Of a stretch of 64,000 nucleotides of DNA, positions 738 to 5,559 are shown piece by piece; position 1 is the first letter of the stretch, and the number at the start of each line of letters is the position of its first letter. The stretch is from Halobacteriovorax sp. HLS. GTDB taxonomy: Bacteria; Bdellovibrionota; Bacteriovoracia; Bacteriovoracales; Bacteriovoracaceae. Below the pieces are notes generated by a model. That model was not told where the DNA came from and did not search any database. It saw only the letters and a list, made by a program, of their open reading frames with translations. The stretch spans positions 1 through 64,000 of the forward strand of contig NZ_QOCL01000012.1 in assembly GCF_004006665.1 (NCBI RefSeq), written 5' to 3'. Made by a program: the position numbers and the translations under genes.

Positions 738-2249
738 ATGAAGTATCATTTGCTTATATTATTGGTTCTATTATTTAGTGGTTGCGCCAAGAAAACAAAA
801 GTGACCCCTCCTGTTGAAGCTAAGGCCTCATGGCTTAAGACTAATACGCTATACAATCATAAGAGTGTCCATGGTGATTATCTAATTCACCCTTTCTTTG
901 ACCTCGTTCCTTTTGCTTCAAAGGAAGACAACTCTATAAATTTTGTCATGACGATGCCGGTCGGATCTAATAATAAATACGCCATTGATCTGCGCTCAGG
1001 AATGCTCTATCGCAAGCATCACAACTGTAGTCAAACAGATGTGTGGAAGAAGTATGGGGGAGACTTGTCTCGTCCTCCATTTACAGAGGGATTTGTTCCA
1101 AGATTGCTCGATCAGTTAGGCGCTCCGCAGAAAATTATTGTCTTTGGAAAGCGTAGATATTTTAATGAATTTCAACTTACACCGACTCGTTCTCAAAGGG
1201 TTAGAGTTGTTGGTGCTGTTTTGCAGCAGTACTGCGAAGATTTCCCATGTCGAGGTCGAAATAAGTGGCTCTCTAAGCTTGTTCTCATTGCAGTTAATCA
1301 AAATGATCCAAGCTATAAGAAAATTACTCATATCAATCAACTTCGAAAAACTCTCGATTGGAATTATATAAAGGCCTATATTGAAAATAGTGATGGAAGG
1401 CAAATCTCAAAGAGCGATGAGGTTCCAAGCTATAGAGTGATAGGTAATATTGGTCCTAAAGAGGCCTTGGTTAATGGACTTTCAAGAGGTCATCTCTTTC
1501 AATATGAACAATTAAGTGGCCTTAGAAAGAACTGTCATAAGCTCTATGACTTTTTGTGGAAGAGCTCTGAGCTCATTAGAAGTTCTAAATTAGATGTAAA
1601 AAAGAACTCAAAAATTTATAGCGAGTCTGTTTACGATAAAAAAGATACATTTACTGGAAATGTTATTAGTGCTGAGATCAATAAGTCATCTAAAGATAAT
1701 GGACTCAGTGACGCAGAGAACTTCAAAGACTTTGCTATTTACTTTAAATCATTTCATGCCAATTACAAAAGTCGCTACTTAACTTGTCAAAAGTTTGTTC
1801 GAGACACTAGTATTAATGCTAACCCGAGAAGAATGTGGTTTTTTTCATATCTTAGTTCATTTCTCTATGCCGAAGATCTAGGACATGTTTATTCTTGCTC
1901 TAGACAGGCATGGATCGAAAACCCTATCCAAGTTTCAGGTAAGCGTATGTTCTCTGCTGAGAATCACCTGCGTAACTGTACCGCTCGTGAGCTAGATCGG
2001 GCCTTCGACATGAGCGTTACTCTATTTGCGGGTCTTTCTAGGTCTTCTAGGGCCCACTACCGCTATATTGAATATGATGAAGGTAATGGTGCGAGTCATC
2101 AGAAGCTTTATTCATGGGTCTTTAATAATGGAAGTGAGTACTCTTGTGATAAAGAGCGCGTAAAGAATCTCTCAATTTTTCCACGAGATATTAATTGGGA
2201 GAGTTTTGGCGCAACAGGTAAGAGAAAGAGAACTGATATTATTGAATAG
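738..2249 (+). CDS. Lipoprotein of unknown function
   Basis: 503 residues. The N-terminus MKYHLLILLVLLFSGCAKK is a lipoprotein signal with a lipobox ending at Cys16, so the protein is probably anchored in a membrane and exposed to the periplasm or surface. GAGGA lies 11 bases before the ATG. I recognise no domain. The mature part is rich in Arg/Lys, Tyr and Phe and has about ten scattered Cys residues that could form disulfides after export. It stands alone: the tRNA upstream points the other way and the Nuo-like operon starts 63 bases downstream, so co-transcription with that operon is possible but unproven. Confidence 0.75.
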   Translation: MKYHLLILLVLLFSGCAKKTKVTPPVEAKASWLKTNTLYNHKSVHGDYLIHPFFDLVPFASKEDNSINFVMTMPVGSNNKYAIDLRSGMLYRKHHNCSQTDVWKKYGGDLSRPPFTEGFVPRLLDQLGAPQKIIVFGKRRYFNEFQLTPTRSQRVRVVGAVLQQYCEDFPCRGRNKWLSKLVLIAVNQNDPSYKKITHINQLRKTLDWNYIKAYIENSDGRQISKSDEVPSYRVIGNIGPKEALVNGLSRGHLFQYEQLSGLRKNCHKLYDFLWKSSELIRSSKLDVKKNSKIYSESVYDKKDTFTGNVISAEINKSSKDNGLSDAENFKDFAIYFKSFHANYKSRYLTCQKFVRDTSINANPRRMWFFSYLSSFLYAEDLGHVYSCSRQAWIENPIQVSGKRMFSAENHLRNCTARELDRAFDMSVTLFAGLSRSSRAHYRYIEYDEGNGASHQKLYSWVFNNGSEYSCDKERVKNLSIFPRDINWESFGATGKRKRTDIIE

Positions 2250-2312: not shown

Positions 2313-2825
2313 ATGAGAGACAATATTCCCACCTTTTTTGATACACAGCAAGGTAATGGGATTGAGAAATTATCTCTTACAACAAATGCTGCAAGCTTTC
2401 TTGAGAAGTTTAATAATTGGATAAATGTTAACTCTTCAATTCCATTTATATTTGATACTGCGTGTTGTAGCGTTGAGTACTCTTGGAGATATAAGTTTAA
2501 TTACTTCGAAGAAGATTTTGAGCCGGAGCAATTACCGGCCCAACAAAGTGATCTTCTCTTTATCGGAGGAACGATCAATAGAAAACTCTTACCTTTTCTA
2601 TTAGAAACATATGAGAAAATGCCTAAGAAGAAGTGGGTTGTTGCTATTGGAGCGTGTCCTTTATCTGGTGGACCATTTGACTCTTATAATATCGTCACTG
2701 ATATCTCTAAATATATCCCAGTAGATATTGCTATTGCTGGTTGTCCTCCAAGACCTGCAGATATAGAGGCCGCAATGACTCTTTTAAAAGAGAGAATTGC
2801 TGCTGGAGTAATGGCCAGTGAATAA
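2313..2825 (+). CDS. NuoB-like 4Fe-4S subunit (NADH-quinone oxidoreductase subunit B family)
   Basis: 170 residues from this start. In complex I, NuoB holds cluster N2, which passes electrons to quinone. The four ligand positions are present: the CC pair in DTACCSVE, the Cys of GACPLSGG and the Cys of GCPPRP. I chose ATG 2313 because AGGAG sits 7 bases before it; an in-frame ATG at 2298 lies upstream of that Shine-Dalgarno site and has none of its own. The 3' end overlaps the NuoCD-like gene by 8 bases. Family membership is clear. The physiological partner is not, because no complex I membrane subunit is encoded nearby. Confidence 0.88.
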   Translation: MRDNIPTFFDTQQGNGIEKLSLTTNAASFLEKFNNWINVNSSIPFIFDTACCSVEYSWRYKFNYFEEDFEPEQLPAQQSDLLFIGGTINRKLLPFLLETYEKMPKKKWVVAIGACPLSGGPFDSYNIVTDISKYIPVDIAIAGCPPRPADIEAAMTLLKERIAAGVMASE

Positions 2826-4461
2826 ATCTAATAATTTGAGAGACTTTTTTCAAGAAGATATTTCTTTTATTGATGATCATCAAGCGGTTCTAAATGTTAG
2901 TATTTTAGATCGTCTGTACCCATCTCTAGAGAAGTTGAGAGTTGATTTTGGCTATATTCTTTTAGTCGATATTTTTGGACAAGACTTAAGTGCTCTTAGT
3001 ACTCAGGCCAGCTCTGATAAACCATTTCAAGTAACTTATGTTCTACTCAATATGGAATATCATCATAGAATACGAGTTAATGTTTTTGTTGATCTCGATT
3101 CTGGAGATGTTCTTCCTTCTGTTACGGGACTGTGGCCTTGTGCTAAGTGGTGTGAAGTTGAAGCGTCGGAAATGTTTGGTATCGCTTTTGGAGACAGTTC
3201 AAAACTGAGACTACTTACGAAAAATGACCTCCAGGGATATCCTCTTCGTAAGTCTTTTAAGTTCTCTGATGAGCAGTGTGGGCGCTCTAGTTTAGAAAAA
3301 AACTCGCAAGAGTTATTTTCTACAGATCATATAAAAGAGAAATATAAGAAGAACTTTATCGACGAATTTTCAATCGGACCTATTCATCCTGCTATGAAAG
3401 GGGCGATGATGCTTCACCTTCAGGTAGAGGGTGATGATATTATTCAATCTAAGCTCGAAGTTGGTTTTCTACATCGAGCAATAGAGAAGTCTGTTGAGTC
3501 AAAACGATACTCACAAATTATTGGACTGACTGATAGATTGAATTACTTCTCAAGTGCATCGAATAATGTTGGTTGGACTAAGGCCGTTGAGGAGTTAGTT
3601 GGACTTGAAATTTCAGATAGAGCAAAGGCCATGCGAATGGTTGTTTGTGAGTTAGCTCGTATTACAGATCACGCCCAATGTATTGGTTCGATGGCCCAAG
3701 GTGCAAAAATCCTTGAGTCCTTTGAAATAACTCTTAAAATTAGAAAGATTATCTTCTCTCTATTTGAGCAATTGTGTGGCGCTCGTGTAACTCATGGGAT
3801 TACTCGAATTGGTGGAATGGCATATGAGTTACCAAACGGATGGTCCAATGATTGTCTGCTAGATCTTAAGCAAGTTTCCAAATATGTTGATGAAATCGAA
3901 TCTTATTTAACTAAGAATACTTTGTGGATGGATAAATTAGCAACGGCTTCTCTTAAGGCCTATGATGCAATCTCATGGGGGATTACTGGTCCAAACCTAA
4001 GAGCTTGTGGTGTAAATTACGATATTAGAAAAGTTTCTCCATACTACTTCTATGAAGATGTAGACTTTAAAATACCTTTAGGAATTAATGGAGATAGTTA
4101 CGATCGTTACTTAGTAAGGTTAGAAGAAATTCGACAATCAGTTAAAATCATTACTCAAGTCTTAGATAGCTTACCTCCAGGCAAAATGCTAAGTGATGAT
4201 CTTGTTACTGAGTTAGACTTATCTTTATTAGGCTTTAAGTCAGATGCGGGGGAAATCTATTCAATGACAGAGGCTCCAAATGGAGAGCTAGGATTCTATA
4301 TTCGATCTGACTCACAAGTGTGCCCGTACCGCGTGAAAATTAGACCACCATCTTTCTTTAGTGCTCAGGCCTTTCCTTCTTTACTAGAAGGGGTCAGAGT
4401 AGCAGATGCTATGGTTTCTCTCAGTTCAATGAATATTGTGGCAGGAGAGCTAGATAGATGA
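2818..4461 (+). CDS. NuoCD-like fused subunit (complex I 30- and 49-kDa type)
   Basis: 547 residues starting at GTG. Residues 1-150 are the NuoC part, with EASEMFGI at about 116-122 and GYPLRKSF at about 140-147. Residues 185-547 are the NuoD part, with GPIHPAMKG at 187-195, FLHRAIEKS at 217-225, TDRLNYFS and a terminal GELDR. Like NuoD, and unlike hydrogenase large subunits, it lacks both CxxC nickel motifs. Complex I normally has a His where this protein has Lys194 (GPxHPxxHG), and that His helps bind quinone, so the substrate may differ. Tyr231, in the position of the quinone-site Tyr, is kept. The gene overlaps both neighbours (8 bases upstream, ATGA downstream), so the three subunits are translationally coupled. 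Confidence 0.88.
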   Translation: MNKSNNLRDFFQEDISFIDDHQAVLNVSILDRLYPSLEKLRVDFGYILLVDIFGQDLSALSTQASSDKPFQVTYVLLNMEYHHRIRVNVFVDLDSGDVLPSVTGLWPCAKWCEVEASEMFGIAFGDSSKLRLLTKNDLQGYPLRKSFKFSDEQCGRSSLEKNSQELFSTDHIKEKYKKNFIDEFSIGPIHPAMKGAMMLHLQVEGDDIIQSKLEVGFLHRAIEKSVESKRYSQIIGLTDRLNYFSSASNNVGWTKAVEELVGLEISDRAKAMRMVVCELARITDHAQCIGSMAQGAKILESFEITLKIRKIIFSLFEQLCGARVTHGITRIGGMAYELPNGWSNDCLLDLKQVSKYVDEIESYLTKNTLWMDKLATASLKAYDAISWGITGPNLRACGVNYDIRKVSPYYFYEDVDFKIPLGINGDSYDRYLVRLEEIRQSVKIITQVLDSLPPGKMLSDDLVTELDLSLLGFKSDAGEIYSMTEAPNGELGFYIRSDSQVCPYRVKIRPPSFFSAQAFPSLLEGVRVADAMVSLSSMNIVAGELDR

Positions 4462-4853
4462 TTTTAGAAAAAGAATTATATAATTCAATAAGTGAAACCA
4501 AGTCTTTTTTTAAGTCCCTCTACACCTTCTTAATTTCAAGTTCGAGTAGTATTTTTAATAAGCCTAAGAAGACCCAGAGTGCGAAATTTCGTGGACTACC
4601 AACATTAAGCAGTGCAAAGGATTGTACTGGCTGTAGTGATTGTGTCGAAATTTGCCCAACAAACTGTCTCACCATTGAGCTTAACAATGACCGTCTTGTT
4701 AAAATGAACCTAAATGTTTTGGCCTGTACATTTTGCGGACTATGCGCGGAAGTATGTGCAGATGATCTTATTAGTCTAAGTGGAACACGTCCTCTGTCAT
4801 CGCACTTTGAGAGCAGATGGACTATTGACTTAGTTTCTGAAAATGAACAATAG
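4458..4853 (+). CDS. NuoI-like 2[4Fe-4S] ferredoxin-type subunit
   Basis: 131 residues with two classic clusters: C56xxC59xxC62xxxC66P and C90xxC93xxC96xxxC100. The second lacks the usual Pro after its last Cys. In complex I such a subunit wires electrons to NuoB. Its start overlaps the NuoCD-like stop as ATGA, so it belongs to the same operon. Residues 10-50 are an N-terminal leader rich in Ser, Lys and Phe (LYTFLISSSS), not a clear membrane segment. A stand-alone polyferredoxin role cannot be excluded. Confidence 0.85.
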   Translation: MILEKELYNSISETKSFFKSLYTFLISSSSSIFNKPKKTQSAKFRGLPTLSSAKDCTGCSDCVEICPTNCLTIELNNDRLVKMNLNVLACTFCGLCAEVCADDLISLSGTRPLSSHFESRWTIDLVSENEQ

Positions 4854-5559
4854 GGTAGAGCTATCAATCGTTATTTCTACGTTCAATGAACTTTCTCTAG
4901 GTTATCTAGAAAACTCTCTCAGCACTCTATCGAAAATAAGTAATCTCGAAATCATTTGTGTCGATGGAAAAAGTACTGATGGAACTTTAGATCTTTTGAA
5001 TAAATATAAAGTTAAATTAATTGAAACACGTAGCCACTCTAGAGCACATCGACTTAACCTTGGAATTCAAGCGTGTAGTTGTGATTTAATCCTCTTATAT
5101 CATCCTAGAAGTTTTGTTGATCCTGCAGGAATAAAATATCTTATGAAGCATTCGCAAGACCTTCTTTGGGGAGGCTTTACTCACCAATTTGATAAGAAGC
5201 ACTGGCTCTTAAAGTTTACTTCTTGGTATTCGAATGAAGTGAGGGCACGTTTGCGTGAGATCTTCTATCTCGACCATTGTATCTACTTTAAAAGGTCGCT
5301 GTTACCGGAAGATCAGCAAGTTGTTAATGAAGTCGTTATTTTTGAAGATACTTTATTTTCTCAGAAGTTGAGTCGTTTAGCTCCTGCAAAATTATTAGAG
5401 TTTTCCTCAATAACTTCTGCTATTAGATTCAATAAGAATGGAGTATTTAGGCAAGCTCTTTTGAACCAGGTTTTAAAAGTGTGCTTCTTATTAGGTTTAT
5501 CTGATGAGCAAATGAATAAGGTCTATGAAAAAGGGTTGGCCTTAAACTCTAAGTATTAA
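4843..5559 (+). CDS. Family 2 glycosyltransferase
   Basis: 238 residues. The N-terminus has the GT-A pattern: VISTFNE near residue 10, then CVDGKSTDGT near residue 40, the nucleotide-sugar binding region. These small GT2 enzymes transfer a sugar from an NDP- or polyprenyl-sugar to glycans or lipids on the cytoplasmic face. The start overlaps the ferredoxin-like gene by 11 bases, so it is probably co-transcribed although no functional link is obvious. No transmembrane segment is apparent. The acceptor and donor cannot be read from the sequence. It converges with aat. Confidence 0.8.
   Translation: MNNRVELSIVISTFNELSLGYLENSLSTLSKISNLEIICVDGKSTDGTLDLLNKYKVKLIETRSHSRAHRLNLGIQACSCDLILLYHPRSFVDPAGIKYLMKHSQDLLWGGFTHQFDKKHWLLKFTSWYSNEVRARLREIFYLDHCIYFKRSLLPEDQQVVNEVVIFEDTLFSQKLSRLAPAKLLEFSSITSAIRFNKNGVFRQALLNQVLKVCFLLGLSDEQMNKVYEKGLALNSKY

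Follow-up and report, generated by a model that had tools for sequence, protein, structure and literature searches.

Three overlapping genes of a complex I quinone module, denoted here nuoB', nuoCD' and nuoI', were found close to the end of contig C12, where the window (the whole stretch of 64,000 nucleotides analysed, from the 3.84-Mb genome of the marine predatory bacterium Halobacteriovorax sp. HLS) begins. The three genes and the gene of an exported lipoprotein before them were arranged on one strand, overlapping or nearly so, and were followed by a glycosyltransferase gene (Table 1). The product of nuoCD', a fusion, scored 362.7 bits against the NCBIfam NuoD family (cut-off 360), and that of nuoB' scored 121.7 bits against NuoB (cut-off 116). 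NuoI was the best NCBIfam family for nuoI', with a score under the subfamily cut-off. The nuoB' start at 2313 fitted best, the Shine-Dalgarno sequence being just 5' of it, and an ATG at 2298 was also open. These coordinates and scores bear out the three overlapping genes of the preliminary description and the glycosyltransferase that it had placed after nuoI'. The glycosyltransferase was TIGR04283-like (126 bits, cut-off 182), lay between nuoI' and aat, and was present only in Halobacteriovorax and G013; it was rejected as a partner of the primed genes because of this confinement. The nuoE-F-G genes, which relatives carry between nuoCD' and nuoI', were absent from that position in the window genome, and the earlier observation that no NuoE/F/G or membrane nuo genes lie near the locus held within the window.

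Table 1. Coordinates of the locus, the canonical complex I genes and the neighbouring membrane block (plain numbers are window positions; C and L denote contigs and loci)
Feature	Position	Strand	Remarks
Exported lipoprotein	738..2249	+	lipobox LFSGC; 503 aa; 8 further invariant Cys
nuoB' (N2 subunit)	2313..2825	+	four cluster Cys all kept; Shine-Dalgarno GAGGAG upstream
nuoCD' fusion	2818..4461	+	GTG start; quinone-site His replaced by Lys194; Tyr of DRLNY kept
nuoI' (2[4Fe-4S])	4458..4853	+	eight ligand Cys all kept
Glycosyltransferase, family-2	4843..5559		after nuoI'
Canonical complex I genes	L010:5243-12991 and L008:17333-19976	-	
Seven intact membrane ORFs, candidate A'H'J'K'L'M'N'	C2:185932-191242		directly after canonical nuoN
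Protein X (GYF/TM/TPR)	C2: about 182,635-185,835 (L116:10636-13836)	-	~1050 aa
MglA-like GTPase and neighbouring roadblock-like protein	L116:1201-2312	-	~9 kb from the protein X gene

The quinone motif of NuoCD' was GPIHPAMKG, with lysine at the second histidine of GPxHPxxHG, in agreement with the residue reported previously. Lysine occupied this position in all five Halobacteriovorax species, and an altered quinone site, already suspected from the window copy, was found in every lineage without NuoE/F/G. The quinone-site tyrosine (DRxxY; Tyr243) was kept in the window species and was replaced by Phe in its four congeners. All 12 Fe-S cysteines were kept in the window species, and the four of NuoB' and the eight of NuoI' were invariant across the five species. 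Because these 12 ligands and the tyrosine are kept, the assembly of the window species may be redox-active.

A second nuo set was present elsewhere in the genome. Contig C1 carried a canonical, split nuoB-C-D-I with HPATHG, and contig C2 carried canonical nuoA-H-J-K-L-M-N in single copy, its NuoH being the sole PF00146 match in the genome. The window genes therefore constitute a separate assembly, one of the two options offered in the preliminary description. Its wording "without any membrane subunit" was not upheld at the genome level, where canonical nuoAHJKLMN is followed directly by an eroded block of seven ORFs. A scattered but ordinary complex I, the outcome named in the preliminary description as its refutation, would agree with the presence of nuo genes at several places of the genome, but a complete canonical nuoBCDI with HPATHG exists besides, and the quinone site differs in the window copy; this explanation is ruled out by the canonical set, and its probability is negligible. 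NuoF was found neither in the window genome nor in the genus, and neither PF01512 nor PF10589 had a match in the genome. The canonical complex I of the window genome was likewise without NuoE/F/G. NqrA was present in this genome, and Na+-NQR has been published for Bacteriovorax marinus (PMC4014512). NADH:quinone oxidation in the window genome is presumably performed by Na+-NQR.

The origin of the primed genes was traced through their relatives. The same syntenic locus in G017 and G034 had the order lipoprotein - B - CD - E - F - G - I - (other genes) - aat - arginase, and homologous B-CD-E-F-G-I clusters were found in other families (G041, G055 and G049). A phylogeny of the NuoD part against complex I, suggested earlier, was calculated with 15 primed sequences and no hydrogenase rows; the primed sequences grouped with the NADH-type NuoCD of Bdellovibrionales, away from canonical NuoD. 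The reduced primed sequences joined via G023 and G034/G017, their inner order being unsure owing to long branches.

In these relatives, an A'H'J'K'L'M'N' block was located directly after canonical nuoN. The second NuoH, which belongs to this block, lay approximately 7.6 kb downstream of the canonical NuoH in G017, G034, G031, G023 and G036. A recognisable second A'H'J'K' was found in G017, G034 and G031 at the place of the seven ORFs of the window genome; L'M'N' was complete in G017, and the contigs of G034 and G031 ended within L'. The seven ORFs encoded 106, 300, 162, 93, 510, 269 and 337 aa in A-H-J-K-L-M-N order. None was recognised by Pfam except K', below the cut-off (NuoK, E 0.006). Iterated HMM searches with shuffled decoys connected the blocks of more conserved relatives with NuoA, H, J, K, L, M and N, and K' of the genus with NuoK (E 7e-9 for the window genome; best shuffled decoy 0.3). 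Comparison of the membrane ORFs of the genus with the intact ones by hhalign gave no clear match, H' being the best with a weak 70%. Hence, we infer the identity of A', J', L', M' and N' in the genus from order, size, hydrophobicity and position. Both NuoH loops, GPNRVGP and PFDLAEGESE, were missing from the positional H', and both aligned membrane glutamates of NuoK were replaced in all five Halobacteriovorax species. Among 14 examined genomes with EFG lost or decaying, 13 had no NuoH quinone loops, the exception being G023. The seven-ORF block would be the membrane arm of the window set, in a non-pumping form, and the locus is probably not truly without membrane subunits. A truly orphan Q-module is unlikely because this block is present. 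Since the genome retains a strongly diverged membrane arm of the window set's own, and this arm co-occurs with the locus, another reading is preferable to the soluble or differently anchored enzyme considered at first.

In most of the genomes examined, also those without primed genes, the end of nuoN/N' was followed by the gene of protein X, which has a GYF-like N-terminus, one TM segment and many TPRs. As a partner of the primed genes, protein X was rejected as not specific, because it also follows nuoN in G006, G009 and G035, where these genes are absent. The MglA-like GTPase and its roadblock-like neighbour in the same region were assigned from sequence only.

The primed nuoCD' and the seven-ORF block, which lie at different genome places, occurred together in 28 genomes and singly in 3, and 4 genomes had neither. 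CD' occurred with no membrane block beside canonical nuoN in G005 and G027, and the block occurred without primed CD' in G016. According to Fisher tests, which ignore shared ancestry and use locus classes assigned by eye from gene tables, the p value was 0.001 for this co-occurrence and 0.002 with the genus counted once, and NqrA was associated with reduction of the set (21 of 23 reduced genomes versus 0 of 5 intact ones, p = 0.0002). The window genes could alternatively encode a second hydrophilic module docked to the canonical AHJKLMN arm and not to an arm of its own, a proposal compatible with the single recognisable NuoH of the window genome and with the high divergence of the primed membrane block. 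However, G012, G014, G020 and G025 keep the primed locus and the seven-ORF block with no canonical membrane arm there, the canonical arm owns its BCDI, and the primed locus and block co-occur, so that such docking is improbable.

The erosion of the primed set was graded across approximately 30 genomes. The first losses were the NADH module and the quinone histidine; loss of the quinone loops and of carboxylates in the membrane subunits followed, and some genera lost the Fe-S cysteines as well. The intact end of the series was formed by G017, G034, G041 and G055, with EFG, HPATHG and all cysteines. E, F and G were decaying in G008. G023 and G011 were without EFG, with the quinone His changed to Gln or Lys and the cysteines kept; the window genus resembled this stage, with the NuoH loops and NuoK glutamates gone in addition. 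The N2 ligands were lost and the NuoI ligands kept in G036 and G013, both sets of ligands were lost in G024 and G030, part of B' was kept in G019, and CD' and the lipoprotein alone remained at the locus in G015 and G018.

This series bears on a redox relay confined to the genus, in which electrons would pass from a ferredoxin-like donor to the two [4Fe-4S] clusters of NuoI', to N2 and then to a new, non-quinone acceptor. The invariant cluster cysteines of the five species, the retained Tyr243 of the window species and the position of B' and CD' as the slowest-evolving primed genes are consistent with such a relay. However, the orthologues of G024, G036, G013, G019, G030 and G012 have lost N2 and/or NuoI ligands with the genes kept, and the locus contains no donor or acceptor gene. 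The relay is hence unlikely, although clearly less so than docking on the canonical arm. Since sister genera lost the ligands but kept the genes, the family-wide function is not electron transfer. The ferredoxin-linked oxidoreductase of the preliminary description therefore fails for the family, and for the genus, with its intact Fe-S ligands, it is tenable. A redox-sensing or electron-relay role in the window genus is possible because the N2/NuoI Fe-S wire is intact.

Selection on the primed genes was evaluated from codon positions. Differences between congeners followed the order p2 < p1 < p3 in all primed genes with almost no gaps, except that p1 and p3 were nearly equal for M' of G000-G002. 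For G003 and G004, the differences at positions 1/2/3 were 0.22/0.11/0.45 for CD', 0.29/0.16/0.52 for H' and 0.51/0.32/0.63 for L'; canonical genes were slower still (0.06/0.02/0.35 for canonical cL). Identity in this pair was 88-99% for the canonical membrane subunits and 39-74% for the primed membrane genes. B', CD' and I' were 65-81% identical between the closer congeners G001, G003 and G004. Moreover, the ORFs were open over whole genera, with a chance of approximately 1e-57 for 1777 codons. The primed genes thus behave like functional, fast-evolving genes, and they are under purifying selection. Plain decay, that is, functionless genes heading for loss, would account for the very fast evolution, for the progressive shortening (M' from 493 to 265-269 aa) and for the repeated loss of catalytic residues and whole subunits. 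However, the second codon positions were far less changed than the third in every primed gene, and neither the scarcity of gaps, nor the ORFs open across genera, nor the identity of B', CD' and I' is expected of such genes. The codon positions indicate ongoing purifying selection and therefore not simple decay, which has little probability.

The lipoprotein was the constant upstream neighbour of B'/CD' and was found only in Bacteriovoracaceae among the genomes searched. It was weakly similar to family-I inorganic pyrophosphatase: the best PDB matches were all pyrophosphatases (E 0.013 upward), and 5 of 20 lipoprotein members had a pyrophosphatase Pfam match. The catalytic motif DGDP..D was missing from the pyrophosphatase-like stretch. 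The copy in G009 carried a stop codon. AlphaFold predictions for the lipoprotein and CD' (pLDDT 32 and 55, respectively) were not good enough for fold searches.

On the observed gene content, residue losses, selection, co-occurrence and link with NqrA, the locus is best read, with a probability of roughly 0.75, as the Q-module left over from the NADH:quinone oxidoreductase (complex I) that was ancestral in Bdellovibrionota, redundant beside Na+-NQR and kept as a non-pumping membrane assembly whose function we infer. In the Bacteriovoracaceae, the ancestral complex I would have become redundant after Na+-NQR was present, beside the EFG-less canonical complex I. It would have lost the EFG NADH module, the quinone-site histidine, the quinone loops of NuoH and the carboxylates of NuoK. 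NuoB'CD'I' and A'H'J'K'L'M'N' most likely form one membrane-anchored assembly, which would neither oxidise NADH, nor reduce quinone at the usual site, nor pump. Its role is probably that of a scaffold or sensor, in a functional link with the exported lipoprotein. Another enzyme seems to have taken over NADH oxidation from the ancestral complex I, which was nevertheless kept, and what is left of it probably has a new task. A more specific version, in which a whole complex I was exapted in predatory bacteria, with repeated loss of the NADH module, the quinone site and the proton channels and, last, of the Fe-S clusters, to become a non-redox membrane assembly that works with the lipoprotein, is tentative, with chances a little below even.

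Complex I is usually kept as an enzyme or lost. One family presents here successive steps between the intact enzyme and an assembly that has no catalytic residues left, with selection still at work. If the proposed reading is true, complex I is of value beyond redox chemistry and pumping, and these natural mutants reveal which parts hold the assembly together. HMM surveys may put genomes of this kind in an "incomplete complex I" class and overlook the eroded membrane arm. The literature search found no open-access paper describing the locus. One survey (PMC12361115) defines a class of "incomplete complex I", some cases of which, according to its authors, may represent fragmentation or assembly artefacts; a term search of the survey gave no mention of Bdellovibrio or degenerate sets.

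Among the known systems, the complex I of Bdellovibrionales (nuoB-CD-E-F-G-I) is the closest, being orthologous by the tree and sharing the fused NuoCD and the Fe-S ligands of NuoB and NuoI. The window set differs from it in the loss of E, F and G, the change of the quinone His to Lys, the loss of the NuoH loops and NuoK Glu, and a membrane block missed by Pfam. The EFG-less (11-subunit) complex I, exemplified by the canonical genes elsewhere in this genome, likewise has the core BCDI without the NADH module, but these canonical genes keep HPATHG, the NuoH loops and the NuoK Glu, with slow evolution of the membrane subunits. The NuoB/C/D/I core is also common to group 4 [NiFe] hydrogenases and Ehr-type complexes; in contrast to these hydrogenases, CD' scores as NuoD and ends in GELDR like NuoD, its best families are NuoD, and its sequence has no [NiFe]-ligand CxxC pair flanking the domain. 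Na+-NQR is likewise an NADH:quinone oxidoreductase but consists of unrelated proteins, and it is the probable functional replacement of the ancestral complex I.
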